The translations under genes were made by a program, and so were the position numbers. Of a stretch of 64,000 nt of DNA, positions 4,087 to 62,316 are shown piece after piece; the first letter of the stretch is position 1, and every line of letters starts with the position of its first letter. The stretch comes from Tetradesmus obliquus (Eukaryota; Chlorophyta; Chlorophyceae; Sphaeropleales; Scenedesmaceae), in contig CP126192.1 of the NCBI GenBank assembly GCA_030272155.1, positions 4,498,501 to 4,562,500 on the forward strand. The letters are read 5' to 3'. The notes beneath the pieces were generated by a model. That model was given only the letters and a program-made list of their open reading frames with translations. It was not told the DNA's origin and did not search any database.

Positions 4087-4327
4087 TTTTGTATGTCGGT
4101 CCTAGGCAGGTGGGGGCCTCACATGCTTGGTCATGGATTGTCCGGGATAAATGCGTCCAGTAGGATTTTTAGCCGGCCAGTGAGTTTCCAGTGGCGGTTC
4201 ACAGACACCCCTGCCAGCCCGCCTCCTTCGTCTAGGACATTCGTACGGCTTCAAATTTGATAAATAATCATTCTACAAACAGGTGTAACAACGAATAAAC
4301 TCTCACGATGCACACATAGCACAACTC

Positions 4328-37429: not shown

Positions 37430-40400
37430 GCCACTACGCGGGCCGGGCCGAAATTTCAACCGTGGCGGCACGTCGAAGGCCGCTGCGATTACTTTTGTAT
37501 GTCGGTCCTAGGCTGGTGGGGGCCTCACATGCTTGGTCATGGATTGTCCGGGATAAATGCGTCCAGTAGGATTTGTAGCCGGCCAGTGAGTTTCCAGTGG
37601 CGGTTCACAGACACCCCTGCCAGCCCGCCTCCTTCGTCTAGGACATTCGTACGGCTTCAAATTTGATAAATAAACATTCTACAAACAGGTGTAACAACGA
37701 ATAAACTCTCACGATGCACACACAGCAAATTTAACAAATGCGCCACTACGCGGGCCGGGCCGAAATTTCAACCGTGGCGGCACGTCGAAGGCCACTGCGA
37801 TTACTTTTGTATGTCGGTCCTAGGCAGGTGGGGGCCTCACATGCTTGGTCATGGATTGATCGGGATAAATGCGTCCAGAAAAATGTTTATGGAGCAAGTG
37901 CACAGTTATTTAAATCAGCCCTGGTAACGTTCTTGCTTCAAAAAAAAAAAAAAAAAGCTGCAGTTTACAGGCAGCATTACGGCTTCAAATTTGATAGATA
38001 AACATTTTACAAACAGGTGTAACAACGAATAAACTCTCACGAGGCACACATAGCACAACTCCAAAATGGCCACTACGCGGGCCGGGCCGAAATTTCAACC
38101 GTGGCGGCACGTCGAAGGCCGCTGCGATTACTTTTGTATGTCGGTCCTAGGCAGGTGGGGGCCTCACATGCTTGGTCATGGATTGTCCGGGATGAATGCG
38201 TCCAGTAGGATTTTTAGCCGGCCAGTGAGTTTCCAGTGGCGGTTCACAGACACCCCTGCCAGCCCGCCTCCTTCGTCTAGGAAAAACGTACGGCTTCAAA
38301 TTTGATTAATAAACATTTTACAAACAGGTGTAACAACGAATAAACTCTCACGATGCACACATAGCACAACTCCAAAATGGCCACTACGCGGGCCGGGCCG
38401 AAATTTCAACCGTGGCGGCACGTCGAAGGCCGCTTCGATTACTTTTGTATGTCGGTCCTAGGCAGGTGGGGGCCTCACATGCTTGGTCATGGATTGTCCG
38501 GGATAAATGCGTCCAGTAGGATTTGTAGCCGGCCAGTGAGTTTCCAGTGGCGGTTCACAGACACCCCTGCCAGCCCGCCTCCTTCGTCTAGGACATTCGT
38601 ACGGCTTCAAATTTGATAAATAAACATTTTACAAACAGGTGTAACAACGAATAAACTCTCACGATGCACACACAGCAAATTTAACAAATGCGCCACTACG
38701 CGGGCCGGGCCGAAATTTCAACCGTGGCGGCACGTCGAAGGCCACTGCGATTACTTTTGTATGTCGGTCCTAGGCAGGTGGGGGGCCTCACATGCTTGGT
38801 CATGGATTGATCGGGATAAATGCGTCCAGAAAAATGTTTATGGAGCAAGTGCACAGTTATTTAAATCAGCCCTTGTAACGTTCTTGCTTCAAAAAAAAAA
38901 AAAAGCTGCAGTTTACAGGCAGCATTACGGCTTCAAATTTGATAAATAAACATTTTACAAACAGGTGTAACGACGAATAAACTCTCACGAGGCACACATA
39001 GCACAACTCCAAAATGGCCACTACGCGGGCCGGGCCGAAATTTCAACCGTGGCGGCACGTCGAAGGCCGCTGCGATTACTTTTGTATGTCGGTCCTAGGC
39101 AGGTGGGGGCCTCACATGCTTGGTCATGGATTGTCCGGGATAAATGCGTCCAGTAGGATTTGTAGCCGGCCAGTGAGTTTCCAGTGGCGGTTCACAGACA
39201 CCCCTGCCAGCCCGCCTCCTTCGTCTAGGACATTCGTACGGCTTCAAATTTGATAAATAATCATTCTACAAACAGGTGTAACAACGAATAAACTCTCACG
39301 ATGCACACATAGCACAACTCCAAAATGGCCACTACGCGGGCCGGGCCGAAATTTCAACCGTGGCGGCACGTCGAAGGCCGCTGCGATTACTTTTGTATGT
39401 CGGTCCTAGGCTGGTGGGGGCCTCACATGCTTGGTCATGGATTGTCCGGGATAAATGCGTCCAGTAGGATTTGTAGCCGGCCAGTGAGTTTCCAGTGGCG
39501 GTTCACAGACACCCCTGCCAGCCCGCCTCCTTCGTCTAGGACATTCGTACGGCTTCAAATTTGATAAATAAACATTCTACAAACAGGTGTAACAACGAAT
39601 AAACTCTCACGATGCACACACAGCAAATTTAACAAATGCGCCACTACGCGGGCCGGGCCGAAATTTCAACCGTGGCGGCACGTCGAAGGCCACTGCGATT
39701 ACTTTTGTATGTCGGTCCTAGGCAGGTGGGGGCCTCACATGCTTGGTCATGGATTGATCGGGATAAATGCGTCCAGAAAAATGTTTATGGAGCAAGTGCA
39801 CAGTTATTTAAATCAGCCCTGGTAACGTTCTTGCTTCAAAAAAAAAAAAAAAAAGCTGCAGTTTACAGGCAGCATTACGGCTTCAAATTTGATAGATAAA
39901 CATTTTACAAACAGGTGTAACAACGAATAAACTCTCACGAGGCACACATAGCACAACTCCAAAATGGCCACTACGCGGGCCGGGCCGAAATTTCAACCGT
40001 GGCGGCACGTCGAAGGCCGCTGCGATTACTTTTGTATGTCGGTCCTAGGCAGGTGGGGGCCTCACATGCTTGGTCATGGATTGTCCGGGATGAATGCGTC
40101 CAGTAGGATTTTTAGCCGGCCAGTGAGTTTCCAGTGGCGGTTCACAGACACCCCTGCCAGCCCGCCTCCTTCGTCTAGGAAAAACGTACGGCTTCAAATT
40201 TGATTAATAAACATTTTACAAACAGGTGTAACAACGAATAAACTCTCACGATGCACACATAGCACAACTCCAAAATGGCCACTACGCGGGCCGGGCCGAA
40301 ATTTCAACCGTGGCGGCACGTCGAAGGCCGCTTCGATTACTTTTGTATGTCGGTCCTAGGCAGGTGGGGGCCTCACATGCTTGGTCATGGATTGTCCGGG

Positions 40401-41165
40401 ATAAATGCGTCCAGTAGGATTTGTAGCCGGCCAGTGAGTTTCCAGTGGCGGTTCACAGACACCCCTGCCAGCCCGCCTCCTTCGTCTAGGACATTCGTAC
40501 GGCTTCAAATTTGATAAATAAACATTTTACAAACAGGTGTAACAACGAATAAACTCTCACGATGCACACACAGCAAATTTAACAAATGCGCCACTACGCG
40601 GGCCGGGCCGAAATTTCAACCGTGGCGGCACGTCGAAGGCCACTGCGATTACTTTTGTATGTCGGTCCTAGGCAGGTGGGGGGCCTCACATGCTTGGTCA
40701 TGGATTGATCGGGATAAATGCGTCCAGAAAAATGTTTATGGAGCAAGTGCACAGTTATTTAAATCAGCCCTTGTAACGTTCTTGCTTCAAAAAAAAAAAA
40801 AAGCTGCAGTTTACAGGCAGCATTACGGCTTCAAATTTGATAAATAAACATTTTACAAACAGGTGTAACGACGAATAAACTCTCACGAGGCACACATAGC
40901 ACAACTCCAAAATGGCCACTACGCGGGCCGGGCCGAAATTTCAACCGTGGCGGCACGTCGAAGGCCGCTGCGATTACTTTTGTATGTCGGTCCTAGGCAG
41001 GTGGGGGCCTCACATGCTTGGTCATGGATTGTCCGGGATAAATGCGTCCAGTAGGATTTGTAGCCGGCCAGTGAGTTTCCAGTGGCGGTTCACAGACACC
41101 CCTGCCAGCCCGCCTCCTTCGTCTAGGACATTCGTACGGCTTCAAATTTGATAAATAATCATTCT
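37430..41165 (+). repeat. 1898-bp six-monomer higher-order repeat, two copies
   Basis: Positions 37430-39327 and 39328-41165 share private variants 1898 bp apart: GATAGATAAAC (37993, 39891), GGGATGAATGCG, CGCTTCGATTAC and GTGTAACGACG. The unit is four type A plus two type B monomers, and 4x311+326+328 equals the spacing. This is a recent tandem duplication. Confidence 0.88.
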
Positions 41166-43410
41166 AAAAACAGGTGTAACAACGAATAAACTCTCACGAT
41201 GCACACATAGCACAACTCCAAAATGGCCACTACGCGGGCCGGGCCGAAATTTCAACCGTGGCGGCACATCGAAGGCCGCTGCGATTACTTTTGTATGTCG
41301 GTCCTAGGCAGGTGGGGGCCTCACATGCTTGGTCATGGATTGTCCGGGATAAATGCGTCCAGTAGGATTGTAGCCGGCCAGTGAGTTTCCAGTGGCGGTT
41401 CACAGACACCCCTGCCAGCCCGCCTCCTTCGTCTAGGAAAAACGTACGGCTTCAAATTTGATAAATAAACATTTTACAAACAGGTGTAACAACGAATAAA
41501 CTCTCACGATGCACACATAGCACAACTCCAAAATGGCCACTACGCGGGCCGGGCCGAAATTTCAACCGTGGCGGCACGTCGAAGGCCGCTGCGATTACTT
41601 TTGTATGTCGGTCCTAGGCTGGTGGGGGCCTCACATGCTTGGTCATGGATTGTCCGGGATAAATGCGTCCAGTAGGATTTGTAGCCGGCCAGTGAGTTTC
41701 CAGTGGCGGTTCACAGACACCCCTGCCAGCCCGCCTCCTTCGTCTAGGACATTCGTACGGCTTCAAATTTGATTAATAAACATTTTACAAACAGGTGTAA
41801 CAACGAATAAACTCTCACGATGCACACATAGCACAACTCCAAAATGGCCACTACGCGGGCCGGGCCGAAATTTCAACCGTGGCGGCACGTCGAAGGCCGC
41901 TGCGATTACTTTTGTATGTCGGTCCTAGGCAGGTGGGGGCCTCACATGCTTGGTCATGGATTGTCCGGGATAAATGCGTCCAGTAGGATTTGTAGCCGGC
42001 CAGTGAGTTTCCAGTGGCGGTTCACAGACACCCCTGCCAGCCCGCCTCCTTCGTCTAGGACATTCGTACGGCTTCAAATTTGATAAATAAACATTTTACA
42101 AACAGGTGTAACAACGAATAAACTCTCACGATGCACACACAGCAAATTTAACAAATGCGCCACTACGCGGGCCGGGCCGAAATTTCAACCGTGGCGGCAC
42201 GTCGAAGGCCACTGCGATTACTTTTGTATGTCGGTCCTAGGCAGGTGGGGGGCCTCACATGCTTGGTCATGGATTGATCGGGATAAATGCGTCCAGAAAA
42301 ATGTTTATGGAGCAAGTGCACAGTTATTTAAATCAGCCCTTGTAACGTTCTTGCTTCAAAAAAAAAAAAAAAGCTGCAGTTTACAGGCAGCATTACGGCT
42401 TCAAATTTGATAAATAAACATTTTACAAACAGGTGTAACGACGAATAAACTCTCACGAGGCACACATAGCACAACTCCAAAATGGCCACTACGCGGGCCG
42501 GGCCGAAATTTCAACCGTGGCGGCACGTCGAAGGCCGCTGCGATTACTTTTGTATGTCGGTCCTAGGCAGGTGGGGGCCTCACATGCTTGGTCATGGATT
42601 GTCCGGGATAAATGCGTCCAGTAGGATTTTTAGCCGGCCAGTGAGTTTCCAGTGGCGGTTCACAGACACCCCTGCCAGCCCGCCTCCTTCGTCTAGGACA
42701 TTCGTACGGCTTCAAATTTGATAAATAATCATTCTACAAACAGGTGTAACAACGAATAAACTCTCACGATGCACACATAGCACAACTCCAAAATGGCCAC
42801 TACGCGGGCCGGGCCGAAATTTCAACCGTGGCGGCACATCGAAGGCCGCTGCGATTACTTTTGTATGTCGGTCCTAGGCAGGTGGGGGCCTCACATGCTT
42901 GGTCATGGATTGTCCGGGATAAATGCGTCCAGTAGGATTGTAGCCGGCCAGTGAGTTTCCAGTGGCGGTTCACAGACACCCCTGCCAGCCCGCCTCCTTC
43001 GTCTAGGAAAAACGTACGGCTTCAAATTTGATAAATAAACATTTTACAAACAGGTGTAACAACGAATAAACTCTCACGATGCACACATAGCACAACTCCA
43101 AAATGGCCACTACGCGGGCCGGGCCGAAATTTCAACCGTGGCGGCACGTCGAAGGCCGCTGCGATTACTTTTGTATGTCGGTCCTAGGCTGGTGGGGGCC
43201 TCACATGCTTGGTCATGGATTGTCCGGGATAAATGCGTCCAGTAGGATTTGTAGCCGGCCAGTGAGTTTCCAGTGGCGGTTCACAGACACCCCTGCCAGC
43301 CCGCCTCCTTCGTCTAGGACATTCGTACGGCTTCAAATTTGATTAATAAACATTTTACAAACAGGTGTAACAACGAATAAACTCTCACGAGGCACACATA
43401 GCACAACTCC
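40912..43410 (+). repeat. 1570-bp five-monomer higher-order repeat, two partial copies
   Basis: Monomers from 40912 and 42482 onward share their order, including the single-T deletion GGATTGTAGCC (about 41370 and 42938) and the GATTAATAAAC variant. The spacing of about 1570 bp equals four A plus one B. It overlaps the end of the 1898-bp repeat, so successive exchange events have occurred here. Confidence 0.8.
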
Positions 43411-44648
43411 AAAATGGCCACTACGCGGGCCGGGCCGAAATTTCAACCGTGGCGGCACGTCGAAGGCCACTGCGATTACTTTTGTATGTCGGTCCTAGGC
43501 TGGTGGGGGCCTAACATGCTTGGTCATGGATTGTCCGGGATAAATGCGTCCAGTAGGATTTGTAGCCGGCCAGTGAGTTTCCAGTGGCGGTTCACAGACA
43601 CCCCTGCCAGCCCGCCTCCTTCGTCTAGGACATTCGTACGGCTTCAAATTTGATAAATAAACATTCTACAAACAGGTGTAACAACGAATAAACTCTCACG
43701 ATGCACACACAGCAAATTTAACAAATGCGCCACTACGCGGGCCGGGCCGAAATTTCAACCGTGGCGGCACGTCGAAGGCCACTGCGATTACTTTTGTATG
43801 TCGGTCCTAGGCAGGTGGGGGCCTCACATGCTTGGTCATGGATTGATCGGGATAAATGCGTCCAGAAAAATGTTTATGGAGCAAGTGCACAGTTATTTAA
43901 ATCAGCCCTGGTAACGTTCTTGCTTCAAAAAAAAAAAAAAAAAGCTGCAGTTTACAGGCAGCATTACGGCTTCAAATTTGATAAATAAACATTTTACAAA
44001 CAGGTGTAACAACGAATAAACTCTCACGAGGCACACATAGCACAACTCCAAAATGGCCACTACGCGGGCCGGGCCGAAATTTCAACCGTGGCGGCACGTC
44101 GAAGGCCGCTGCGATTACTTTTGTATGTCGGTCCTAGGCAGGTGGGGGCCTCACATGCTTGGTCATGGATTGTCCGGGATAAATGCGTCCAGTAGGATTT
44201 TTAGCCGGCCAGTGAGTTTCCAGTGGCGGTTCACAGACACCCCTGCCAGCCCGCCTCCTTCGTCTAGGACATTCGTACGGCTTCAAATTTGATAAATAAT
44301 CATTCTACAAACAGGTGTAACAACGAATAAACTCTCACGATGCACACAAAGCACAACTCCAAAATGGCCACTACGCGGGCCGGGCCGAAATTTCAACCGT
44401 GGCGGCACGTCGAAGGCCGCTGCGATTACTTTTGTATGTCGGTCCTAGGCTGGTGGGGGCCTAACATGCTTGGTCATGGATTGTCCGGGATAAATGCGTC
44501 CAGTAGGATTTGTAGCCGGCCAGTGAGTTTCCAGTGGCGGTTCACAGACACCCCTGCCAGCCCGCCTCCTTCGTCTAGGACATTCGTACGGCTTCAAATT
44601 TGATAAATAAACATTCTACAAACAGGTGTAACAACGAATAAACTCTCA

Positions 44649-45018
44649 CAATGGATCTTTTTATGGAGCAAGTGCACAGTTATTTAGGTCCGCCCTTGTA
44701 ACGTTCTTGCTTCAAACTCTCACGATTTTATTAATTTTTTTTTTTTTAAGCAAGAACGTTACAAGGGCTGACCTAAATAACTGTGCACTTGCTCCATAAA
44801 AAGATCCATTGAGAGAGTGAGGCAACCTGTTCCGCACTCACTCCACAGGTCTCTTGTACCAAGAGACGCTGTCACACGATCATGCAGACAGCCCCTTGCG
44901 GAGCAGCCCCGAAAGGCATCCAGGACCTGACCGAGTGCCCAGACTCCACTAAAATCACAGTCGCGCAATGACGTCCTGTGATGTGTGACAGACCGTGACT
45001 GGCCCTTGAATCAAAATC
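44649..45018. repeat. LINE 3'-end inverted pair, array edge
   Basis: A sense LINE 3' end, an interrupted T-run, then the antisense 3' end extending to GAATCAAAATC. It is shorter than the cassettes on the left and lacks the second T-led piece. Confidence 0.83.
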
Positions 45019-47155: not shown

Positions 47156-47588
47156 TGTGGCGCCCGCTGCTGTGGGCGCAACCCTCAACCACGCCGTCGT
47201 CACCCAGGCGTGGGCCCCATATTTCAACGTATTCACCGGGGTTGCTGGGCAGGTCGTAGTGTGCAGCTTGCAGGCGCTTGCGGAACTCTGCTGTGGCGTC
47301 AACTAGATTACCAGAACTTGCCCTCCAGGCAAGGCCAGCAGTGTTTTGGTAGACTGGTGGATAGGTCATATGCTGCATGTATCACGCCGAACCCTAGTTA
47401 GTACTGAACCTTGGACATGTGGCGTGTTGGTGCTCATTGTGCATGGACGGGGGCAGCACTCTGAGGCGGGCACAGTAGCGCAGCCCTGAGTTGATTGGCT
47501 ACATCACATTTAAAATGCAATGCTGCGCTGCGATGCTACAGCATTAAATTGTATTTTGCCTCACTGGGTCTAGTAAAGAATCTCGCGC
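47156..47588 (-). pseudogene. Truncated transposon right end (array start)
   Basis: Holds the first ~73 codons of transposase exon 1 (start ATG at 47378) and the right terminal inverted repeat at 47562-47588. The rest of the gene is missing because the array begins here, so the copy cannot make transposase. Confidence 0.9.
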
Positions 47589-48249
47589 CATATATGCAGG
47601 GATGTAGCCAAGATCCCTATGCATCTATTGGCGTGCTCAATTGATGCGCTGCATGCGTGTGTGCTCTGGAAAACGAGTTTACGTATGTCCCTCCTCGCAG
47701 TTAAAAACGGCGGGGATAGGCAGGTTTTGCTGCGGCTGCGCTGCTTCGAGTGACACATAAAAATATGGAATGTGTTTGCATGCAGCAGCAGGGCTGGCTG
47801 TGTGTTGTGTGTGGCGATCCAGGGCTGTGATGCGCTTGCCATGCCAAAGTGAACTCGTGATGCTTGCCCTGCTTGATTGAGCTGAGTGCCGAAAACATGT
47901 TTTCTGAGTATCGAGATTTTGGTTGTGTTGCTGTTGTGAGGCGTGCTGCAGCAGCAGCCCAGCTTGTTCACCTGATGCCTGCAAATAGCTCCTGTGGCCT
48001 TGCTGTGCTGCTGCGTGCTGATGAGAGCCCTGTGCCACGGGGGGGTTTCGATGCTATTGTGTGGTGCAAGTGTGGGTGTAAAACAGGCGTCACTGAGGGG
48101 TGTCACCAGCAGCAGCAGCAGGCAGCAGGTTGGCAGTGTCTGCATTGGCCCTGTTCAAGGCTTCATTGTGTGCTCAAGGTAACCACGATTATACATACGA
48201 AGCTGCGTTGGATAGTATTGCGGCCGTGCGCAACAGGCTGCATGTGAAC
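47589..48249. other. 661-bp spacer between transposons, copy 1
   Basis: Lies outside the transposon ends. The plus strand has an open frame from about 47864 whose longest coherent stretch includes EYRDFGCVAVVRRAAAAAQL, then a Cys-rich WCKCGCKTGV, a short Gln run, and a possible splice donor AAG/GTAACC at 48178/48179. It might be a captured host exon. I do not recognise it, and overlapping minus-strand frames are equally long. Nothing else is visible. Confidence 0.45.
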
Positions 48250-48276
48250 GTGTGAGATTCTTTTCTCGACCCAGTG
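48250..48276 (+). repeat. Left terminal inverted repeat
   Basis: Pairs with 51244-51270 on the opposite strand. The mismatches are T/C at the two outermost pyrimidine positions of GYGYGAG and two internal changes (TTTT/TTTA, CTCG/CTAG). Repeated at 51932, 55614, 59296 and 62978. Confidence 0.87.
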
Positions 48277-48528
48277 AAGCAGCACCACTTTTGGGGCCCC
48301 GGTTTAGGGCGCAAGTTGTCAGTGTGGCACAAGCCTGTAAATTCGTGATATAATTCATGGATGCAGTTCTTCTGTATGTGCTTAACATACGTGATGCCGC
48401 TCAGCGCGACAGCCTTAATACGCACAGCTCTGCCGTGGTGAAGTTCCAGTGCAGGCAGTTTCCCTGTGGACCTCGCGATATTCGCCTCTTCGCCTGTCTG
48501 CTTCCGCCCAATTTACAATCGAAATCGA

Positions 48529-50298
48529 ATGAGTGGTCACGCCGGAGCATTGCCGCAGCAAGCAGCCTCCGCAATGACAACAGCGGAGCCCGGGATGTCA
48601 ACACCGGTGAGCTGCTGTTGCTGCCCGGGCGCTCGTTGTGCTGCCATAACAATCAATCATGTGAGCAGTATATTAATAAGGATTGATCAGCTGCGCGTAT
48701 ATCAGCAGCACCGCGGCCGTGCTCCGCAGTTTGACCATGAAGCAGCAGCTGTCTCCCTGCAGCCACAGCTTGCTGCACTACAACACCAAGGAACGCCTTG
48801 ACAGCCAAACTTGCGTGCCCAAATAATCAAAATACACTTCTTCATGCTACAAATGCTTCTGCTGCTTGCAGGGCATGCTTGAACTGCAGCCAGAAAGCCA
48901 ACAACCTTGCAGCAGCAGCAGTACGAGCCAGCAGTGCGGCTCTGGCTGCCAGCACCACATGGAGACCAGGAGGAAAGGCAAAGCAGCCAACAAAGGTATG
49001 CTTATACTACAGCATATATTGTGCTTCACAACTAGAATAGCAGCTGCTGTGCATCTCAGCTGTAGGTGATGGCAGCCACAGCAAGGTGCCAGGGCAGCAC
49101 TTGTTGCGCGCAACTTGTGTGCACTCTGTCTACCTGAAAGGGAATGGTGCATACAGGCCAGCATTGTCAATGACTGCCTGGTAGGTGTATGGCAAGCTGT
49201 CCACATCAGCCTGGATTGAAGCAGGCTGTACATCATAGAACAACTGCTCCAGCTTATCCTGGCACTGCTGCGGGGTCGGCTTGCCCGGCCACAAGCTGCG
49301 GCGCCATGCCTGCAGTGCCTGGCTCAGGTATGCATGCACATGCTCGACCACCTTGTGCAGATCAGGACTGAGGGGACACAGGGCAAACCTGTGGTCTTTC
49401 GACCAGATGCCGTGCTCGTCCAGCTTGGCACGCGCGTGTGCGCTGTCGTTGTCACTGGACAACAGCCAGATGGGCTCCTCTCCTGGGTTCTGCTGCGTGT
49501 ACGCCTGCCACAGCTCGTGCAGCCTCTCACGCAGATCCCGGATGCAATCCTCATACTCATCTGCTGTCATGCCCTTTGCTGGCTCACCCTTTCTGGTCTG
49601 CAGGCACAGGGCAGGTTGCAGGCAGCACACCACCAGCAGCAAAACCCGTGGGCAGGCCAAAGGGGTGTTTCAGCAATGAAGCCCAGCAGAGGTGGAGGCC
49701 AGGTTTAAACCACATGCTGCTTGAGAGCCATGCAGCCTACAGCAGCAGCAAGCAGTGCTTTACATGCAGGTGCAAGAACAGCAAGCATGTCAGACTGCTG
49801 GCACTGCAAACCGTGTCACGCGGGGACGCTTGCTTCAAGTGTCATGTGTGCAGCAAGAAGGGCAGCAAGTACGAGAAGCAGCTGTATGCTTTGCTGAACA
49901 GCAACGCAGCTGTCACCGCATACGCTGTGGAGGCAGTGGCTATGGGCAGGAAGATACAGCTGCAGATACCTAACAGCAAGCAGGGGCTGTGGCTGAACAG
50001 GCACAGATGGGATGCAGTGCTGCTGCAGCCGGATAGCTTGCTGATTGAGGTGCAAGGAGAGCAGCACATAGACAAGGAGGACGGCAAGCGCAACAACAGG
50101 GGTGACACACTAGCAGACAGGCAGGCCAAGGACCAGGCATTGGCAGATGCAGCGCTGGCCGACGGTTTCAGTGTGCTGTGGCTGCACCCAGGTGCTGCAG
50201 ATGATGTGCGGGGCCGCGCCAGGCGCTGGGCAGCAGCTGTGCAGGTGGCGCTGGAGCATGTTGCTGCCAAGCAGCGCCCCAAGCTGTTCAAGGCCTGA
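48529..50298 (+). CDS. Zinc-ribbon PD-(D/E)XK nuclease-like protein, copy 1
   Basis: Spliced model: exons 48529-48606, 48872-48995 and 49604-50298, with donors GTGAGC and GTATGC and acceptors CTTGCAG and TCTGCAG. The frame is kept across both joins, giving 298 aa. Residues 1-67 are low-complexity. GRPKG at 84-88 resembles an AT-hook. Cys119, 122, 124, 144, 147 and 150 suggest a zinc ribbon. Residues 155-262 have the order of a Vsr/DUF559-type PD-(D/E)XK fold: E158 in a helix (KYEKQLYALL), D204 (RWDAVLL), E216-x-Q218 (LLIEVQGEQH) and D239...K243 before the strand FSVLWLH. Gln in place of the motif Lys is known in active members. A DNA-cutting or target-finding role for the transposon is inference. 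Exon 3 lies wholly inside the intron of the antisense transposase. The first exon is the least certain, since Met28 in exon 2 could also start the protein. Confidence 0.75.
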
Positions 50299-51060
50299 AC
50301 TCACCCGGTAATCACAGCCGTCTCTGTCTGCTGCCATGCCGCTTGTGCCAGTGAAGAATTTGATCCACACAGGACCCAGCAGGTAGTTGACGCCAATGAT
50401 GTACTTCAGCTTTGCCGCGCTGTTGTTGTAGCGGGGCACAGGTGTGCGCCAGTGCCAGTCCTCTTCACCAGCACTGAACCAGCCCATGTAGGATTCCTTG
50501 CTCAAGCAGATCACCTTCTCATCCACCCACACCACAGCAGCCTTGTCAGCTTGCAGCCGCGCCTTATTTTCTGCGCTGACGTCGATTCTGCTCTGCCTGT
50601 GTTGGTCATCCAGGTAGGCCCTGTCGCGCACAACCCCATACTTAAAGCGGGGGTCAAACTCCTTGAGGTTGTTGGTCAGGGTCTCCGGAGTGATGCCGGC
50701 GCCCGTCACGATGTTGTGCACCACCGCGCTCTCAGCAATCAGCTGCTCCGCTGAGGTGTACGGACCCTGCCTGCCGGCCAACCACCAGTTGCGGGCCTCG
50801 ACATAGCAAGCAGTTACCTGCCGCTCTGTCAAAACCTTGTGGCGCCCGCTGCTGTGGGCGCAACCCTCAACCACGCCGTCGTCACCCAGGCGTGGGCCCC
50901 ATATTTCAACGTATTCACCGGGGTTGCTGGGCAGGTCGTAGTGTGCAGCTTGCAGGCGCTTGCGGAACTCTGCTGTGGCGTCAACTAGATTACCAGAACT
51001 TGCCCTCCAGGCAAGGCCAGCAGTGTTTTGGTAGACTGGTGGATAGGTCATATGCTGCAT
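49130..51060 (-). CDS. DDE transposase, IS630/Tc1/mariner type, copy 1
   Basis: Two exons, 51060-50305 and 49597-49130, give 407 aa. The donor is GTGAGT (50304-50299), the acceptor CCTGCAG, and the intron has 707 nt in phase 0 (CGG/ACC). The ATG at 51060-51058 is the first in frame. Residues about 75-145 look like helix-turn-helix DNA binding (SAEQLIAESAVVHNI, ITPETLTNNL). The RNase H-like core has D180 (VVWVDEKVICL), D301 (WLLSSDNDSAHAR) and E337 (CPLSPDLHKVVEHVHAYL), with 35 residues between the last two and the SPDL word typical of Tc1/mariner. It would cut and join at the terminal repeats. The protein ends AVIDNAGLYAPFPFR, a usual family terminus. The intron contains the last exon of the plus-strand nuclease-like gene. 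Confidence 0.88.
49598..49603. promoter_or_regulatory. Palindromic CTGCAG shared as 3' splice site on both strands
   Basis: On the plus strand it ends the intron before nuclease exon 3 (exon starts at 49604). On the minus strand it ends the transposase intron (exon 2 starts at 49597). Both joins keep the reading frame and have pyrimidine-rich approaches. Repeated at 53280, 56962 and 60644. Confidence 0.7.
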
Positions 51061-51243
51061 GTATCACGCCGAACCCTAGTTAGTACTGAACCTTGGACAT
51101 GTGGCGTGTTGGTGCTCATTGTGCATGGACGGGGGCAGCACTCTGAGGCGGGCACAGTAGCGCAGCCCTGAGTTGATTGGCTACATCACATTTAAAATGC
51201 AATGCTGCGCTGCGATGCTACAGCATTAAATTGTATTTTGCCT

Positions 51244-51270
51244 CACTGGGTCTAGTAAAGAATCTCGCGC
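51244..51270 (-). repeat. Right terminal inverted repeat
   Basis: Inverted partner of 48250-48276. Other copies start at 47562, 54926, 58608 and 62290. Confidence 0.87.
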
Positions 51271-51931
51271 CATATATGCAGGGATGTAGCCAAGATCCCT
51301 ATGCATCTATTGGCGTGCTCAATTGATGCGCTGCATGCGTGTGTGCTCTGGAAAACGAGTTTACGTATGTCCCTCCTCGCAGTTAAAAACGGCGGGGATA
51401 GGCAGGTTTTGCTGCGGCTGCGCTGCTTCGAGTGACACATAAAAATATGGAATGTGTTTGCATGCAGCAGCAGGGCTGGCTGTGTGTTGTGTGTGGCGAT
51501 CCAGGGCTGTGATGCGCTTGCCATGCCAAAGTGAACTCGTGATGCTTGCCCTGCTTGATTGAGCTGAGTGCCGAAAACATGTTTTCTGAGTATCGAGATT
51601 TTGGTTGTGTTGCTGTTGTGAGGCGTGCTGCAGCAGCAGCCCAGCTTGTTCACCTGATGCCTGCAAATAGCTCCTGTGGCCTTGCTGTGCTGCTGCGTGC
51701 TGATGAGAGCCCTGTGCCACGGGGGGGTTTCGATGCTATTGTGTGGTGCAAGTGTGGGTGTAAAACAGGCGTCACTGAGGGGTGTCACCAGCAGCAGCAG
51801 CAGGCAGCAGGTTGGCAGTGTCTGCATTGGCCCTGTTCAAGGCTTCATTGTGTGCTCAAGGTAACCACGATTATACATACGAAGCTGCGTTGGATAGTAT
51901 TGCGGCCGTGCGCAACAGGCTGCATGTGAAC
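51271..51931. other. 661-bp spacer, copy 2
   Basis: Same sequence as the spacer at 47589-48249, with the same Cys-rich plus-strand frame from 51546. Confidence 0.45.
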
Positions 51932-52210
51932 GTGTGAGATTCTTTTCTCGACCCAGTGAAGCAGCACCACTTTTGGGGCCCCGGTTTAGGGCGCAAGTTG
52001 TCAGTGTGGCACAAGCCTGTAAATTCGTGATATAATTCATGGATGCAGTTCTTCTGTATGTGCTTAACATACGTGATGCCGCTCAGCGCGACAGCCTTAA
52101 TACGCACAGCTCTGCCGTGGTGAAGTTCCAGTGCAGGCAGTTTCCCTGTGGACCTCGCGATATTCGCCTCTTCGCCTGTCTGCTTCCGCCCAATTTACAA
52201 TCGAAATCGA

Positions 52211-53980
52211 ATGAGTGGTCACGCCGGAGCATTGCCGCAGCAAGCAGCCTCCGCAATGACAACAGCGGAGCCCGGGATGTCAACACCGGTGAGCTGCTGT
52301 TGCTGCCCGGGCGCTCGTTGTGCTGCCATAACAATCAATCATGTGAGCAGTATATTAATAAGGATTGATCAGCTGCGCGTATATCAGCAGCACCGCGGCC
52401 GTGCTCCGCAGTTTGACCATGAAGCAGCAGCTGTCTCCCTGCAGCCACAGCTTGCTGCACTACAACACCAAGGAACGCCTTGACAGCCAAACTTGCGTGC
52501 CCAAATAATCAAAATACACTTCTTCATGCTACAAATGCTTCTGCTGCTTGCAGGGCATGCTTGAACTGCAGCCAGAAAGCCAACAACCTTGCAGCAGCAG
52601 CAGTACGAGCCAGCAGTGCGGCTCTGGCTGCCAGCACCACATGGAGACCAGGAGGAAAGGCAAAGCAGCCAACAAAGGTATGCTTATACTACAGCATATA
52701 TTGTGCTTCACAACTAGAATAGCAGCTGCTGTGCATCTCAGCTGTAGGTGATGGCAGCCACAGCAAGGTGCCAGGGCAGCACTTGTTGCGCGCAACTTGT
52801 GTGCACTCTGTCTACCTGAAAGGGAATGGTGCATACAGGCCAGCATTGTCAATGACTGCCTGGTAGGTGTATGGCAAGCTGTCCACATCAGCCTGGATTG
52901 AAGCAGGCTGTACATCATAGAACAACTGCTCCAGCTTATCCTGGCACTGCTGCGGGGTCGGCTTGCCCGGCCACAAGCTGCGGCGCCATGCCTGCAGTGC
53001 CTGGCTCAGGTATGCATGCACATGCTCGACCACCTTGTGCAGATCAGGACTGAGGGGACACAGGGCAAACCTGTGGTCTTTCGACCAGATGCCGTGCTCG
53101 TCCAGCTTGGCACGCGCGTGTGCGCTGTCGTTGTCACTGGACAACAGCCAGATGGGCTCCTCTCCTGGGTTCTGCTGCGTGTACGCCTGCCACAGCTCGT
53201 GCAGCCTCTCACGCAGATCCCGGATGCAATCCTCATACTCATCTGCTGTCATGCCCTTTGCTGGCTCACCCTTTCTGGTCTGCAGGCACAGGGCAGGTTG
53301 CAGGCAGCACACCACCAGCAGCAAAACCCGTGGGCAGGCCAAAGGGGTGTTTCAGCAATGAAGCCCAGCAGAGGTGGAGGCCAGGTTTAAACCACATGCT
53401 GCTTGAGAGCCATGCAGCCTACAGCAGCAGCAAGCAGTGCTTTACATGCAGGTGCAAGAACAGCAAGCATGTCAGACTGCTGGCACTGCAAACCGTGTCA
53501 CGCGGGGACGCTTGCTTCAAGTGTCATGTGTGCAGCAAGAAGGGCAGCAAGTACGAGAAGCAGCTGTATGCTTTGCTGAACAGCAACGCAGCTGTCACCG
53601 CATACGCTGTGGAGGCAGTGGCTATGGGCAGGAAGATACAGCTGCAGATACCTAACAGCAAGCAGGGGCTGTGGCTGAACAGGCACAGATGGGATGCAGT
53701 GCTGCTGCAGCCGGATAGCTTGCTGATTGAGGTGCAAGGAGAGCAGCACATAGACAAGGAGGACGGCAAGCGCAACAACAGGGGTGACACACTAGCAGAC
53801 AGGCAGGCCAAGGACCAGGCATTGGCAGATGCAGCGCTGGCCGACGGTTTCAGTGTGCTGTGGCTGCACCCAGGTGCTGCAGATGATGTGCGGGGCCGCG
53901 CCAGGCGCTGGGCAGCAGCTGTGCAGGTGGCGCTGGAGCATGTTGCTGCCAAGCAGCGCCCCAAGCTGTTCAAGGCCTGA
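52211..53980 (+). CDS. Zinc-ribbon PD-(D/E)XK nuclease-like protein, copy 2
   Basis: Exons 52211-52288, 52554-52677 and 53286-53980. The predicted protein is identical to copy 1, with the same motifs and open throughout. Confidence 0.75.
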
Positions 53981-54742
53981 ACTCACCCGGTAATCACAGC
54001 CGTCTCTGTCTGCTGCCATGCCGCTTGTGCCAGTGAAGAATTTGATCCACACAGGACCCAGCAGGTAGTTGACGCCAATGATGTACTTCAGCTTTGCCGC
54101 GCTGTTGTTGTAGCGGGGCACAGGTGTGCGCCAGTGCCAGTCCTCTTCACCAGCACTGAACCAGCCCATGTAGGATTCCTTGCTCAAGCAGATCACCTTC
54201 TCATCCACCCACACCACAGCAGCCTTGTCAGCTTGCAGCCGCGCCTTATTTTCTGCGCTGACGTCGATTCTGCTCTGCCTGTGTTGGTCATCCAGGTAGG
54301 CCCTGTCGCGCACAACCCCATACTTAAAGCGGGGGTCAAACTCCTTGAGGTTGTTGGTCAGGGTCTCCGGAGTGATGCCGGCGCCCGTCACGATGTTGTG
54401 CACCACCGCGCTCTCAGCAATCAGCTGCTCCGCTGAGGTGTACGGACCCTGCCTGCCGGCCAACCACCAGTTGCGGGCCTCGACATAGCAAGCAGTTACC
54501 TGCCGCTCTGTCAAAACCTTGTGGCGCCCGCTGCTGTGGGCGCAACCCTCAACCACGCCGTCGTCACCCAGGCGTGGGCCCCATATTTCAACGTATTCAC
54601 CGGGGTTGCTGGGCAGGTCGTAGTGTGCAGCTTGCAGGCGCTTGCGGAACTCTGCTGTGGCGTCAACTAGATTACCAGAACTTGCCCTCCAGGCAAGGCC
54701 AGCAGTGTTTTGGTAGACTGGTGGATAGGTCATATGCTGCAT
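52812..54742 (-). CDS. DDE transposase, copy 2
   Basis: Exons 54742-53987 and 53279-52812. Identical 407-aa product with the complete DDE triad and the same intron. Confidence 0.88.
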
Positions 54743-54952
54743 GTATCACGCCGAACCCTAGTTAGTACTGAACCTTGGACATGTGGCGTGTTGGTGCTCA
54801 TTGTGCATGGACGGGGGCAGCACTCTGAGGCGGGCACAGTAGCGCAGCCCTGAGTTGATTGGCTACATCACATTTAAAATGCAATGCTGCGCTGCGATGC
54901 TACAGCATTAAATTGTATTTTGCCTCACTGGGTCTAGTAAAGAATCTCGCGC

Positions 54953-55613
54953 CATATATGCAGGGATGTAGCCAAGATCCCTATGCATCTATTGGCGTGC
55001 TCAATTGATGCGCTGCATGCGTGTGTGCTCTGGAAAACGAGTTTACGTATGTCCCTCCTCGCAGTTAAAAACGGCGGGGATAGGCAGGTTTTGCTGCGGC
55101 TGCGCTGCTTCGAGTGACACATAAAAATATGGAATGTGTTTGCATGCAGCAGCAGGGCTGGCTGTGTGTTGTGTGTGGCGATCCAGGGCTGTGATGCGCT
55201 TGCCATGCCAAAGTGAACTCGTGATGCTTGCCCTGCTTGATTGAGCTGAGTGCCGAAAACATGTTTTCTGAGTATCGAGATTTTGGTTGTGTTGCTGTTG
55301 TGAGGCGTGCTGCAGCAGCAGCCCAGCTTGTTCACCTGATGCCTGCAAATAGCTCCTGTGGCCTTGCTGTGCTGCTGCGTGCTGATGAGAGCCCTGTGCC
55401 ACGGGGGGGTTTCGATGCTATTGTGTGGTGCAAGTGTGGGTGTAAAACAGGCGTCACTGAGGGGTGTCACCAGCAGCAGCAGCAGGCAGCAGGTTGGCAG
55501 TGTCTGCATTGGCCCTGTTCAAGGCTTCATTGTGTGCTCAAGGTAACCACGATTATACATACGAAGCTGCGTTGGATAGTATTGCGGCCGTGCGCAACAG
55601 GCTGCATGTGAAC
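54953..55613. other. 661-bp spacer, copy 3
   Basis: Same as the first spacer. The plus-strand frame begins at 55228. Confidence 0.45.
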
Positions 55614-55892
55614 GTGTGAGATTCTTTTCTCGACCCAGTGAAGCAGCACCACTTTTGGGGCCCCGGTTTAGGGCGCAAGTTGTCAGTGTGGCACAAGCCT
55701 GTAAATTCGTGATATAATTCATGGATGCAGTTCTTCTGTATGTGCTTAACATACGTGATGCCGCTCAGCGCGACAGCCTTAATACGCACAGCTCTGCCGT
55801 GGTGAAGTTCCAGTGCAGGCAGTTTCCCTGTGGACCTCGCGATATTCGCCTCTTCGCCTGTCTGCTTCCGCCCAATTTACAATCGAAATCGA

Positions 55893-57662
55893 ATGAGTGG
55901 TCACGCCGGAGCATTGCCGCAGCAAGCAGCCTCCGCAATGACAACAGCGGAGCCCGGGATGTCAACACCGGTGAGCTGCTGTTGCTGCCCGGGCGCTCGT
56001 TGTGCTGCCATAACAATCAATCATGTGAGCAGTATATTAATAAGGATTGATCAGCTGCGCGTATATCAGCAGCACCGCGGCCGTGCTCCGCAGTTTGACC
56101 ATGAAGCAGCAGCTGTCTCCCTGCAGCCACAGCTTGCTGCACTACAACACCAAGGAACGCCTTGACAGCCAAACTTGCGTGCCCAAATAATCAAAATACA
56201 CTTCTTCATGCTACAAATGCTTCTGCTGCTTGCAGGGCATGCTTGAACTGCAGCCAGAAAGCCAACAACCTTGCAGCAGCAGCAGTACGAGCCAGCAGTG
56301 CGGCTCTGGCTGCCAGCACCACATGGAGACCAGGAGGAAAGGCAAAGCAGCCAACAAAGGTATGCTTATACTACAGCATATATTGTGCTTCACAACTAGA
56401 ATAGCAGCTGCTGTGCATCTCAGCTGTAGGTGATGGCAGCCACAGCAAGGTGCCAGGGCAGCACTTGTTGCGCGCAACTTGTGTGCACTCTGTCTACCTG
56501 AAAGGGAATGGTGCATACAGGCCAGCATTGTCAATGACTGCCTGGTAGGTGTATGGCAAGCTGTCCACATCAGCCTGGATTGAAGCAGGCTGTACATCAT
56601 AGAACAACTGCTCCAGCTTATCCTGGCACTGCTGCGGGGTCGGCTTGCCCGGCCACAAGCTGCGGCGCCATGCCTGCAGTGCCTGGCTCAGGTATGCATG
56701 CACATGCTCGACCACCTTGTGCAGATCAGGACTGAGGGGACACAGGGCAAACCTGTGGTCTTTCGACCAGATGCCGTGCTCGTCCAGCTTGGCACGCGCG
56801 TGTGCGCTGTCGTTGTCACTGGACAACAGCCAGATGGGCTCCTCTCCTGGGTTCTGCTGCGTGTACGCCTGCCACAGCTCGTGCAGCCTCTCACGCAGAT
56901 CCCGGATGCAATCCTCATACTCATCTGCTGTCATGCCCTTTGCTGGCTCACCCTTTCTGGTCTGCAGGCACAGGGCAGGTTGCAGGCAGCACACCACCAG
57001 CAGCAAAACCCGTGGGCAGGCCAAAGGGGTGTTTCAGCAATGAAGCCCAGCAGAGGTGGAGGCCAGGTTTAAACCACATGCTGCTTGAGAGCCATGCAGC
57101 CTACAGCAGCAGCAAGCAGTGCTTTACATGCAGGTGCAAGAACAGCAAGCATGTCAGACTGCTGGCACTGCAAACCGTGTCACGCGGGGACGCTTGCTTC
57201 AAGTGTCATGTGTGCAGCAAGAAGGGCAGCAAGTACGAGAAGCAGCTGTATGCTTTGCTGAACAGCAACGCAGCTGTCACCGCATACGCTGTGGAGGCAG
57301 TGGCTATGGGCAGGAAGATACAGCTGCAGATACCTAACAGCAAGCAGGGGCTGTGGCTGAACAGGCACAGATGGGATGCAGTGCTGCTGCAGCCGGATAG
57401 CTTGCTGATTGAGGTGCAAGGAGAGCAGCACATAGACAAGGAGGACGGCAAGCGCAACAACAGGGGTGACACACTAGCAGACAGGCAGGCCAAGGACCAG
57501 GCATTGGCAGATGCAGCGCTGGCCGACGGTTTCAGTGTGCTGTGGCTGCACCCAGGTGCTGCAGATGATGTGCGGGGCCGCGCCAGGCGCTGGGCAGCAG
57601 CTGTGCAGGTGGCGCTGGAGCATGTTGCTGCCAAGCAGCGCCCCAAGCTGTTCAAGGCCTGA
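55893..57662 (+). CDS. Zinc-ribbon PD-(D/E)XK nuclease-like protein, copy 3
   Basis: Exons 55893-55970, 56236-56359 and 56968-57662. Product identical to copy 1. Confidence 0.75.
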
Positions 57663-58424
57663 ACTCACCCGGTAATCACAGCCGTCTCTGTCTGCTGCCA
57701 TGCCGCTTGTGCCAGTGAAGAATTTGATCCACACAGGACCCAGCAGGTAGTTGACGCCAATGATGTACTTCAGCTTTGCCGCGCTGTTGTTGTAGCGGGG
57801 CACAGGTGTGCGCCAGTGCCAGTCCTCTTCACCAGCACTGAACCAGCCCATGTAGGATTCCTTGCTCAAGCAGATCACCTTCTCATCCACCCACACCACA
57901 GCAGCCTTGTCAGCTTGCAGCCGCGCCTTATTTTCTGCGCTGACGTCGATTCTGCTCTGCCTGTGTTGGTCATCCAGGTAGGCCCTGTCGCGCACAACCC
58001 CATACTTAAAGCGGGGGTCAAACTCCTTGAGGTTGTTGGTCAGGGTCTCCGGAGTGATGCCGGCGCCCGTCACGATGTTGTGCACCACCGCGCTCTCAGC
58101 AATCAGCTGCTCCGCTGAGGTGTACGGACCCTGCCTGCCGGCCAACCACCAGTTGCGGGCCTCGACATAGCAAGCAGTTACCTGCCGCTCTGTCAAAACC
58201 TTGTGGCGCCCGCTGCTGTGGGCGCAACCCTCAACCACGCCGTCGTCACCCAGGCGTGGGCCCCATATTTCAACGTATTCACCGGGGTTGCTGGGCAGGT
58301 CGTAGTGTGCAGCTTGCAGGCGCTTGCGGAACTCTGCTGTGGCGTCAACTAGATTACCAGAACTTGCCCTCCAGGCAAGGCCAGCAGTGTTTTGGTAGAC
58401 TGGTGGATAGGTCATATGCTGCAT
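56494..58424 (-). CDS. DDE transposase, copy 3
   Basis: Exons 58424-57669 and 56961-56494. Product identical to copy 1. Confidence 0.88.
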
Positions 58425-58634
58425 GTATCACGCCGAACCCTAGTTAGTACTGAACCTTGGACATGTGGCGTGTTGGTGCTCATTGTGCATGGACGGGGGC
58501 AGCACTCTGAGGCGGGCACAGTAGCGCAGCCCTGAGTTGATTGGCTACATCACATTTAAAATGCAATGCTGCGCTGCGATGCTACAGCATTAAATTGTAT
58601 TTTGCCTCACTGGGTCTAGTAAAGAATCTCGCGC

Positions 58635-59295
58635 CATATATGCAGGGATGTAGCCAAGATCCCTATGCATCTATTGGCGTGCTCAATTGATGCGCTGCAT
58701 GCGTGTGTGCTCTGGAAAACGAGTTTACGTATGTCCCTCCTCGCAGTTAAAAACGGCGGGGATAGGCAGGTTTTGCTGCGGCTGCGCTGCTTCGAGTGAC
58801 ACATAAAAATATGGAATGTGTTTGCATGCAGCAGCAGGGCTGGCTGTGTGTTGTGTGTGGCGATCCAGGGCTGTGATGCGCTTGCCATGCCAAAGTGAAC
58901 TCGTGATGCTTGCCCTGCTTGATTGAGCTGAGTGCCGAAAACATGTTTTCTGAGTATCGAGATTTTGGTTGTGTTGCTGTTGTGAGGCGTGCTGCAGCAG
59001 CAGCCCAGCTTGTTCACCTGATGCCTGCAAATAGCTCCTGTGGCCTTGCTGTGCTGCTGCGTGCTGATGAGAGCCCTGTGCCACGGGGGGGTTTCGATGC
59101 TATTGTGTGGTGCAAGTGTGGGTGTAAAACAGGCGTCACTGAGGGGTGTCACCAGCAGCAGCAGCAGGCAGCAGGTTGGCAGTGTCTGCATTGGCCCTGT
59201 TCAAGGCTTCATTGTGTGCTCAAGGTAACCACGATTATACATACGAAGCTGCGTTGGATAGTATTGCGGCCGTGCGCAACAGGCTGCATGTGAAC
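58635..59295. other. 661-bp spacer, copy 4
   Basis: Same as the first spacer. The plus-strand frame begins at 58910. Confidence 0.45.
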
Positions 59296-59574
59296 GTGTG
59301 AGATTCTTTTCTCGACCCAGTGAAGCAGCACCACTTTTGGGGCCCCGGTTTAGGGCGCAAGTTGTCAGTGTGGCACAAGCCTGTAAATTCGTGATATAAT
59401 TCATGGATGCAGTTCTTCTGTATGTGCTTAACATACGTGATGCCGCTCAGCGCGACAGCCTTAATACGCACAGCTCTGCCGTGGTGAAGTTCCAGTGCAG
59501 GCAGTTTCCCTGTGGACCTCGCGATATTCGCCTCTTCGCCTGTCTGCTTCCGCCCAATTTACAATCGAAATCGA

Positions 59575-61344
59575 ATGAGTGGTCACGCCGGAGCATTGCC
59601 GCAGCAAGCAGCCTCCGCAATGACAACAGCGGAGCCCGGGATGTCAACACCGGTGAGCTGCTGTTGCTGCCCGGGCGCTCGTTGTGCTGCCATAACAATC
59701 AATCATGTGAGCAGTATATTAATAAGGATTGATCAGCTGCGCGTATATCAGCAGCACCGCGGCCGTGCTCCGCAGTTTGACCATGAAGCAGCAGCTGTCT
59801 CCCTGCAGCCACAGCTTGCTGCACTACAACACCAAGGAACGCCTTGACAGCCAAACTTGCGTGCCCAAATAATCAAAATACACTTCTTCATGCTACAAAT
59901 GCTTCTGCTGCTTGCAGGGCATGCTTGAACTGCAGCCAGAAAGCCAACAACCTTGCAGCAGCAGCAGTACGAGCCAGCAGTGCGGCTCTGGCTGCCAGCA
60001 CCACATGGAGACCAGGAGGAAAGGCAAAGCAGCCAACAAAGGTATGCTTATACTACAGCATATATTGTGCTTCACAACTAGAATAGCAGCTGCTGTGCAT
60101 CTCAGCTGTAGGTGATGGCAGCCACAGCAAGGTGCCAGGGCAGCACTTGTTGCGCGCAACTTGTGTGCACTCTGTCTACCTGAAAGGGAATGGTGCATAC
60201 AGGCCAGCATTGTCAATGACTGCCTGGTAGGTGTATGGCAAGCTGTCCACATCAGCCTGGATTGAAGCAGGCTGTACATCATAGAACAACTGCTCCAGCT
60301 TATCCTGGCACTGCTGCGGGGTCGGCTTGCCCGGCCACAAGCTGCGGCGCCATGCCTGCAGTGCCTGGCTCAGGTATGCATGCACATGCTCGACCACCTT
60401 GTGCAGATCAGGACTGAGGGGACACAGGGCAAACCTGTGGTCTTTCGACCAGATGCCGTGCTCGTCCAGCTTGGCACGCGCGTGTGCGCTGTCGTTGTCA
60501 CTGGACAACAGCCAGATGGGCTCCTCTCCTGGGTTCTGCTGCGTGTACGCCTGCCACAGCTCGTGCAGCCTCTCACGCAGATCCCGGATGCAATCCTCAT
60601 ACTCATCTGCTGTCATGCCCTTTGCTGGCTCACCCTTTCTGGTCTGCAGGCACAGGGCAGGTTGCAGGCAGCACACCACCAGCAGCAAAACCCGTGGGCA
60701 GGCCAAAGGGGTGTTTCAGCAATGAAGCCCAGCAGAGGTGGAGGCCAGGTTTAAACCACATGCTGCTTGAGAGCCATGCAGCCTACAGCAGCAGCAAGCA
60801 GTGCTTTACATGCAGGTGCAAGAACAGCAAGCATGTCAGACTGCTGGCACTGCAAACCGTGTCACGCGGGGACGCTTGCTTCAAGTGTCATGTGTGCAGC
60901 AAGAAGGGCAGCAAGTACGAGAAGCAGCTGTATGCTTTGCTGAACAGCAACGCAGCTGTCACCGCATACGCTGTGGAGGCAGTGGCTATGGGCAGGAAGA
61001 TACAGCTGCAGATACCTAACAGCAAGCAGGGGCTGTGGCTGAACAGGCACAGATGGGATGCAGTGCTGCTGCAGCCGGATAGCTTGCTGATTGAGGTGCA
61101 AGGAGAGCAGCACATAGACAAGGAGGACGGCAAGCGCAACAACAGGGGTGACACACTAGCAGACAGGCAGGCCAAGGACCAGGCATTGGCAGATGCAGCG
61201 CTGGCCGACGGTTTCAGTGTGCTGTGGCTGCACCCAGGTGCTGCAGATGATGTGCGGGGCCGCGCCAGGCGCTGGGCAGCAGCTGTGCAGGTGGCGCTGG
61301 AGCATGTTGCTGCCAAGCAGCGCCCCAAGCTGTTCAAGGCCTGA
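59575..61344 (+). CDS. Zinc-ribbon PD-(D/E)XK nuclease-like protein, copy 4
   Basis: Exons 59575-59652, 59918-60041 and 60650-61344. Product identical to copy 1. Confidence 0.75.
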
Positions 61345-62106: not shown

Positions 62107-62316
62107 GTATCACGCCGAACCCTAGTTAGTACTGAACCTTGGACATGTGGCGTGTTGGTGCTCATTGTGCATGGACGGGGGCAGCACTCTGAGGCGGGCA
62201 CAGTAGCGCAGCCCTGAGTTGATTGGCTACATCACATTTAAAATGCAATGCTGCGCTGCGATGCTACAGCATTAAATTGTATTTTGCCTCACTGGGTCTA
62301 GTAAAGAATCTCGCGC

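Follow-up and report, generated by a model that had tools for sequence, protein, structure and literature searches.

A probable composite-like DNA transposon of Tetradesmus obliquus with putative transposase and antisense nuclease genes predicted to interlock through their introns

In a 64,000-nucleotide (nt) stretch of the green alga Tetradesmus obliquus (contig CP126192.1 of assembly GCA_030272155.1, positions 4,498,501 to 4,562,500 of the forward strand; hereafter the window), we identified a tandemly repeated element whose transposase and nuclease genes lie on opposite strands. The two genes appear to be interlocked: the last exon of the nuclease gene occupies the intron of the transposase gene, and exon 2 of the transposase gene lies within the intron of the nuclease gene. 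We consider the element probably to be a DNA transposon with a composite-like structure, S-(G-S)n, in which S is a long terminal direct repeat and G carries the two antisense, spliced genes, one for an Asp-Asp-Glu (DDE) transposase and one for a nuclease. Very likely, this interlocked layout is genuine and ancient and did not arise as a chance reading, since distant relatives of the element keep it. The original prediction for this locus had proposed that each gene's exon serves as the other's intron, and three diverged families were found to show this layout too, with a fifth showing part of it; the composite architecture, in which one insertion would comprise a whole tandem array, had escaped that prediction. 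The predicted gene features of one unit are as follows.

50305 to 51060, minus strand: transposase exon 1 (756 nt, 252 codons), an open frame up to the donor GTGAGT
49598 to 50304, minus strand: transposase intron (707 nt, phase 0), GTGAGT...CTGCAG
49130 to 49597, minus strand: transposase exon 2 (468 nt; 155 codons plus the stop at 49130 to 49132)
48959 to 48995, plus strand: probable initial coding exon of the nuclease gene (METRRKGKAANK plus 1 nt), with its ATG at 48959 and donor GTATGC at 48996
48996 to 49603, plus strand: nuclease intron (608 nt, phase 1), with all of transposase exon 2 inside it
49604 to 50298, plus strand: nuclease last exon, encoding a Cys-His zinc finger and then an E...D...ExQGEQH...D nuclease motif; stop TGA at 50296 to 50298
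49598 to 49603, either strand: palindrome CTGCAG, the predicted 3' splice acceptor (AG) for both genes, one per strand

The exon coordinates and frames of the original prediction were correct to the base. Both of the 6-bp gaps that it placed on either side of the nuclease last exon, within the transposase intron, also are present. One gap (50299 to 50304) corresponds, in reverse complement, to the transposase donor GTGAGT and directly adjoins the nuclease stop; the other is the acceptor, CTGCAG, which is palindromic and therefore supplies an AG on both strands. Transposase exons 1 and 2, joined in phase 0, encode a protein of 407 amino acids. The first catalytic Asp of this protein is residue 180, in exon 1, and D301 and E337 are encoded by exon 2. 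An Rfam scan of the window at gathering scores gave no match and hence no sign of a known self-splicing intron.

The genome (104.7 Mb; 17 contigs, labeled C1 to C17) was searched with both proteins. The window contains four complete 3,682-bp units that are 100% identical, as well as parts of two more; because of this identity the four units count as one observation, and independent support comes from diverged families. The family of the window, F1, forms arrays on C2, C10, and C6, and a 98% identical copy and partial copies are found on C16. Relative to F1, the transposase and nuclease were, respectively, 50% and 66% identical in F2 (C3, C8, and C17), 36% and 40% identical in F3 (C15), and 31% and 36% identical in F4 (C16), where the transposase values for F3 and F4 come from partial proteins with an interrupted exon 1 frame. 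Transposase exon 1 is homologous in F2 and in a fifth family, F5, and is found only as pieces in F3 and F4. In the copies read of F1 to F4, the antisense nuclease was located between the two transposase exons. This arrangement was regular in the F2 array on C3, where all 16 units had exon 1 adjoining the nuclease match and exon 2 beginning 698 bp past the low end of that match.

F5 (read at C5:4679300-4683700) was found through the F2 transposase exon 2 (E value, 0.0076). Its transposase aligns to those of F1 to F4 over the exon junction (hhalign probability, 99.1; E value, 8e-19), and hmmsearch matched its two exons to the F1 to F4 transposase with E values of 9e-15 and 5e-14. The F5 intron lies at the position of the F1 to F4 intron to within one residue and is filled by an antisense open reading frame (ORF) of 262 codons, which was free of stops at 132 of 146 scored places (280 candidates) and gave a weak match to DUF559 (0.059). 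Transposase exon 1 of F5 was 98 to 100% identical in the 126 places scored among 473 candidates. Copies of F5 occur on 12 contigs, with unit spacings near 4,282 and 3,562 bp.

The predicted splice signals were compared among the families. The transposase donor was GTGAGT in all five families read, and the transposase intron was in phase 0 in each of them as read. In F1, F2, and F4, the nuclease stop directly borders the donor hexamer; it is 3 bp away in F3, and the stop of the F5 antisense ORF is 8 bp away. F1, F2, and F5 have the common palindrome CTGCAG, and F3 and F4 have two separate acceptors that are close together. Across F1 to F4, the donor, the phases of both introns, and the approximate intron lengths were kept.

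The original prediction had begun the upstream nuclease exon at 48872 and ended it at 48995. The donor edge at 48995 was retained, but coding probably starts at the ATG at 48959, because each of the four nuclease-bearing families offers a short first exon that ends at a phase-1 donor. This candidate exon has 12 codons in F1 to F3 and 14 in F4 and reads METRRKGKAANK in F1, MPINNQDNHVAA in F2, MHTRSQAKNPDQ in F3, and MVYSTRSKGRAPTA in F4; that of F2 has little sequence in common with the other families. Each ATG was picked by eye, as was the donor in F2 (of 2 candidates), F3 (of 5), and F4 (of 2). The resulting nuclease introns are 608 nt in F1, 599 nt in F2, 608 nt in F3, and 604 to 610 nt in F4, and each encloses the whole of transposase exon 2. 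If the nuclease message were not spliced onto an upstream exon, no in-frame ATG would precede the nuclease domain in three of the four families (F1 to F3; F4 differs). A first nuclease exon upstream of transposase exon 2 is thus likely from these comparisons, and we rejected a simple nested-gene reading because this probable exon lies outside the transposase intron.

The nuclease exon, and not the transposase frame across it, appeared to be under selection. Between F1 and F2, the ratio of nonsynonymous to synonymous substitution rates (dN/dS) was 0.45 for the nuclease exon, with stops in neither family, versus 1.00 when the same DNA was read in the transposase frame, with 3 and 1 stops. The original prediction had named conservation of 49604 to 50304 as coding sequence in the transposase frame as evidence that would count against it; F1 and F2, the pair for which this check could be made, favor the prediction. 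The transposase itself gave a dN/dS of 0.58 in exon 1 and 0.45 in exon 2 for the same pair, and the nuclease gave 0.30 between F3 and F4.

The S repeat and the array in the window are located as follows.

47562 to 48276, either strand: S, a long terminal direct repeat of 715 bp with inverted ends CACTGGGTC...GACCCAGTG; the next copy is at 51244 to 51958
47156 to 64000, either strand: tandem array of the element with a period of 3,682 bp; its leftmost unit is truncated in transposase exon 1, and it runs on past the window

S begins and ends each of the four F1/F2 insertions for which both ends were read, and it has the same length in F1 and F2. No gene was identified in S. Its counterparts measure 699 bp in F3 (one copy) and 690 and 720 bp in F4 (two copies), the ends of the latter being CAGTAGG. 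All four F1/F2 insertions are flanked by 3-bp duplications (GAT on C3, CTA on C8, CAG on C17, and TTG on C10), and the insertion on C8, of F2, is a single S-G-S; the count excludes C2, where the array is truncated on the left within the window, and C6, which was read at a single end. Outside the F1 arrays, 3-bp duplications also flank three of three full-length S copies (GAG on C4, AGG on C15, and CAC on C10) in a survey that scored 40 of 133 candidates. These duplications around both arrays and solo S copies indicate that S is a mobile unit and that S-(G-S)n is one composite-like insertion, which most likely grew in place. At unit-unit junctions that lack S, a CAG/CTG is left (read stretches L003, position 3873; L071, near 5873; and L070, near 4270), like the 3-nt excision footprint of a cut-and-paste transposon.

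Other arrangements of the element were seen in the genome. On C10, the full-length S is 0.8 kb from an array of three partial S copies of 588 bp (C10:5213566-5216863) at a spacing of 1,355 bp, apparently a nonautonomous tandem derivative. At C16:1397500-1404500 (L071), a near-perfect palindrome near position 2922 has an element copy on each side, the two being arranged head to head. The tandem arrays on C2, C3, C10, and C17 are very large and nearly perfect, with the F2 array on C17 extending over about 220 kb; such arrays possibly are a component of centromeres or heterochromatin. In the window, about 55 copies of a 311-bp satellite (27343 to 44649) adjoin the transposon array, and blocks related to this satellite are found between 42 and 14638.

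Analysis of the transposase alignment revealed that D180, D301, and E337 are invariant in the four aligned members and aligned in F5 too, with 35 residues between the last D and the E and an SPD-like motif before the E. The Pfam scan of the F1 transposase and F1 nuclease matched no family. The NCBIfam IS630 model matched two of the four members (best, 8.8e-6) and F5 exon 2 (4.4e-4), HTH_Tnp_Tc3_2 matched one of four (0.056), DDE_3 matched F5 exon 2 at 6.9e-5, under the Pfam cutoff, and the best solved structure was that of the Sleeping Beauty transposase (0.017). We therefore read the protein as an IS630/Tc1/mariner-like DDE transposase. All of the transposase-type models matched were of the IS630/Tc1 type, and no CACTA-type transposase family of Pfam was found at E values up to 10 for the four members and F5. 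A YfbR-like Pfam match (0.073, one of four) was judged spurious. Patterns derived from the transposase profile matched 71 stretches in a search for viral relatives, none of which was confirmed.

The five aligned nuclease sequences share an invariant C...H...C..C finger and invariant E90, D136, E148, Q150, H154, and D176. The EDxHD layout is defined by conserved E, D, H, and D in that order, and we take the E, D, H, D order of the nuclease (or D...ExK/Q) to be the EDxHD / PD-(D/E)XK motif. Nine PHROG profiles matched the nuclease: phrog_4538, of unknown function, in 5/5 sequences (best, 2.2e-7); the homing endonuclease phrog_9084 in 4/5 (best, 3.9e-4); the HNH-labeled phrog_559 in 3/5, possibly through the zinc finger; the zinc finger phrog_9929 in 3/5; and five more, one of them labeled head closure (2/5). 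The protein thus resembles phage homing endonucleases. The PD-(D/E)XK label of the original prediction agrees with the conserved residues and with weak profile matches only, although an EDxHD/Vsr-type, homing-endonuclease-like assignment fits better. Other searches for relatives were negative: profile comparison with solved structures gave three chance-level matches only (E values of 1.1 and worse), no His-Me finger (His-Cys box) type was found among Pfam or PDB matches, tblastn of the F1 nuclease exon against phage records gave no match, and of 171 stretches matched by profile-derived patterns for viral relatives none was confirmed. We judged as spurious an NCBIfam sigma-factor match (best, 3.2e-4, 2/5), which scored 20 bits against a cutoff of 261, and Pfam matches, each in one of five sequences, to TIMP (0.011), UPF0167 (0.094), SIP (4.5), and zf-DNL (9.2).

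Members of the IS630/Tc1/mariner group duplicate a TA target. The element resembles this group (Sleeping Beauty, Tc1, and IS630) in its DDE triad with 35-residue spacing, its SPD-like motif, its weak profile matches, and the 3-nt CAG/CTG left where S is absent, which is similar to the footprints of the group, and it differs in its 3-bp non-TA duplications, CACTG ends, composite repeats, and interlocked accessory nuclease. CACTA/EnSpm elements are defined by CACTA/G ends and a 3-bp duplication. The CACTGGGTC ends of F1 and F2 (CACTG) and the 3-bp duplications recall these elements, while F4 departs from them (CAGTAGG, AGAG); no CACTA transposase domain was matched, and for this reason a pure CACTA assignment was rejected.

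The closest parallel in architecture is with KolobokP. In these animal composite-like DNA transposons (PMC9587614), long terminal direct repeats (LTDR) with inverted ends of their own surround an internal region (INT), and solo repeats and (LTDR-INT)n-LTDR multimers occur within one target duplication of a few base pairs; INT-INT junctions without the repeat are found, and a transposase is accompanied by a nuclease on the complementary strand. The present element shares with KolobokP the terminal direct repeats with inverted ends, the solo copies, the multimers, the short target duplications, the junctions without a repeat, and the complementary-strand nuclease. It differs in that the KolobokP nuclease is described as lying downstream of the transposase, whereas here the genes are interlocked through introns. 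The KolobokP nuclease is described as a His-Me finger (His-Cys box) protein, and the KolobokP termini are RR...YY (PMC9587614); here the nuclease looks EDxHD/DUF559-like and the termini are CA...TG. KolobokP has a Kolobok transposase and animal hosts; the transposase-type models matched here were of the IS630/Tc1 type, and the host is an alga. A transposase paired with a nuclease ORF also is known from ISL2EU of the PHIS group, whose second ORF has a YqaJ exonuclease domain; its DDE transposase is of a different group, and the excerpt of that report does not mention interlocking (PMC4482050). Fanzor proteins are carried by diverse eukaryotic transposons, again without mention of interlocking in the excerpted source (PMC3627910). 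One EDxHD homing endonuclease is I-Bth0305I (PMC3943268). The nuclease is like such enzymes in the order of its conserved E, D, H, and D and in its matches to phage homing endonuclease profiles. It is unlike them in being encoded by a transposon gene with a predicted spliceosomal intron. Among the matches listed in a search of the open-access literature by title and start of abstract, which did not cover Repbase, there was no interlocked transposon or transposon with reciprocal introns.

A working model can be proposed for the element. The minus-strand message would encode the transposase, which would act on the S ends and could move anything bounded by them (S, S-G-S, or multimers) with a 3-bp duplication. 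The plus-strand message would encode the zinc-finger nuclease, which most likely would cut inside the element's own repeats. Such breaks may lead to unequal exchange between S repeats and so build and keep the tandem arrays, as proposed for KolobokP (PMC9587614). Each primary transcript would be spliced so that the other gene's exon is discarded; the mature messages then would share no coding sequence, and complementarity between the primary transcripts would extend over 1.1 kb or more (49130 to 50298). Such complementarity may give rise to interference or small RNAs, in keeping with the suggestion of the original prediction that expression may be mutually exclusive or RNAi-prone. A possible benefit of the interlock is that no deletion or insertion could remove or separate one gene without damage to the other.

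Several observations weigh against the reading of the element as a transposon with two functional interlocked genes. Splicing of both genes, on either strand, is predicted from their sequence. The exon 1 frame is interrupted in F3 and F4, and an intact transposase was read in F1, its C16 copy, F2, and F5 only. All Pfam and NCBIfam matches are beneath the curated cutoffs, and the 3-bp duplications (GAT, CTA, CAG, TTG, GAG, AGG, and CAC) are not the TA of the IS630/Tc1/mariner group. The F4 insertion, a single S-G-S, is flanked by a 4-bp match, AGAG, in place of a 3-bp one. No similarity emerged when the F5 antisense ORF was compared by profile with the F1 to F4 nuclease, and F5 was for this reason not counted as a bearer of the same nuclease; its ORF also differs from the nuclease in start phase and is more variable (down to 95%) than F5 transposase exon 1. 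The intron may have been filled twice, or the gene may have diverged beyond recognition. Between F1 and its 98% copy on C16, the nuclease exon shows 2 synonymous and 8 nonsynonymous changes (dN/dS, 1.2, from 10 changes only), and the mirror antisense frame of the nuclease has a dN/dS of 0.49, though with stops.

Three other explanations were weighed with these points in mind. The nuclease could be a selfish homing endonuclease gene, a passenger that invaded the transposase intron and is useless to the transposon. Its last exon is wholly intronic and phage homing endonuclease-like, no clear constraint is apparent between close F1 copies, and the unrelated-looking F5 ORF at the same place looks as if the intron had been invaded or replaced twice. 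However, the probable first exon past transposase exon 2 makes the genes of F1 to F4 interlocked and not nested, comparisons between families show the nuclease to be under purifying selection (dN/dS of 0.45 for F1-F2 and 0.30 for F3-F4), and the gene is present in the F1 to F4 copies read. A comparable composite architecture, with a transposase and a nuclease on complementary strands, is also known from KolobokP (PMC9587614). On balance we regard a useless passenger as unlikely, though it deserves to be taken seriously.

It is very improbable that the transposase is the sole gene, its intron an ordinary one, and the antisense frame a by-product of codon bias in CAG/CTG-rich DNA with few stops. 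The DNA is indeed CAG/CTG-rich, and the mirror frame also appears constrained. An antisense frame of at least the observed length, however, was reached in only 14, 16, 15, 9, and 8 of 5,000 dinucleotide shuffles of the F1 to F5 introns (for the F1 copy on C16, in 37 of 5,000). Moreover, the transposase frame is not conserved in the intron between F1 and F2, which leaves no sense coding to mirror, and the Cys/His and nuclease-like residues are invariant in 5/5 sequences, and the protein matches nuclease and zinc finger profiles. We give even less credence to an unspliced transposase that ends within the present intron as a shorter protein. The frame does stay open past exon 1 for 64 codons in F1 and 199 in F2. 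Such a protein, however, would lack the second D and the E of the triad, which are encoded in exon 2 and conserved in F1 to F5. The position of the first stop varies among the families (codons 65, 200, 91, 97, and 23 in F1 to F5), and the transposase frame contains 3, 1, 2, 3, and 11 stops, respectively, through the intron.

We thus favor a composite-like transposon with interlocked genes. Its composite-like architecture already is known from KolobokP (PMC9587614); what appears to be new is the interlocked gene pair. The layout persists between families with transposase identities of about 30%, and it therefore can be asked which selective force preserves it, such as transcription interference, small-RNA control, or linkage. 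To our knowledge, reciprocally interlocked antisense genes are rarely discussed. In this alga, the element repeats the KolobokP-type repeat-plus-nuclease composite design with different enzymes, which suggests a general route from DNA transposons to tandem arrays up to hundreds of kilobases long. More tentatively, and with some doubt, the families could form a lineage of their own among eukaryotic DNA transposons. In it, reciprocal antisense introns would for a long time have tied a DDE transposase to a homing-type nuclease, and the nuclease would expand single insertions into large arrays across chromosomes. If so, the interlock would prevent the two genes from being separated and may cause them to be expressed in a mutually exclusive way.

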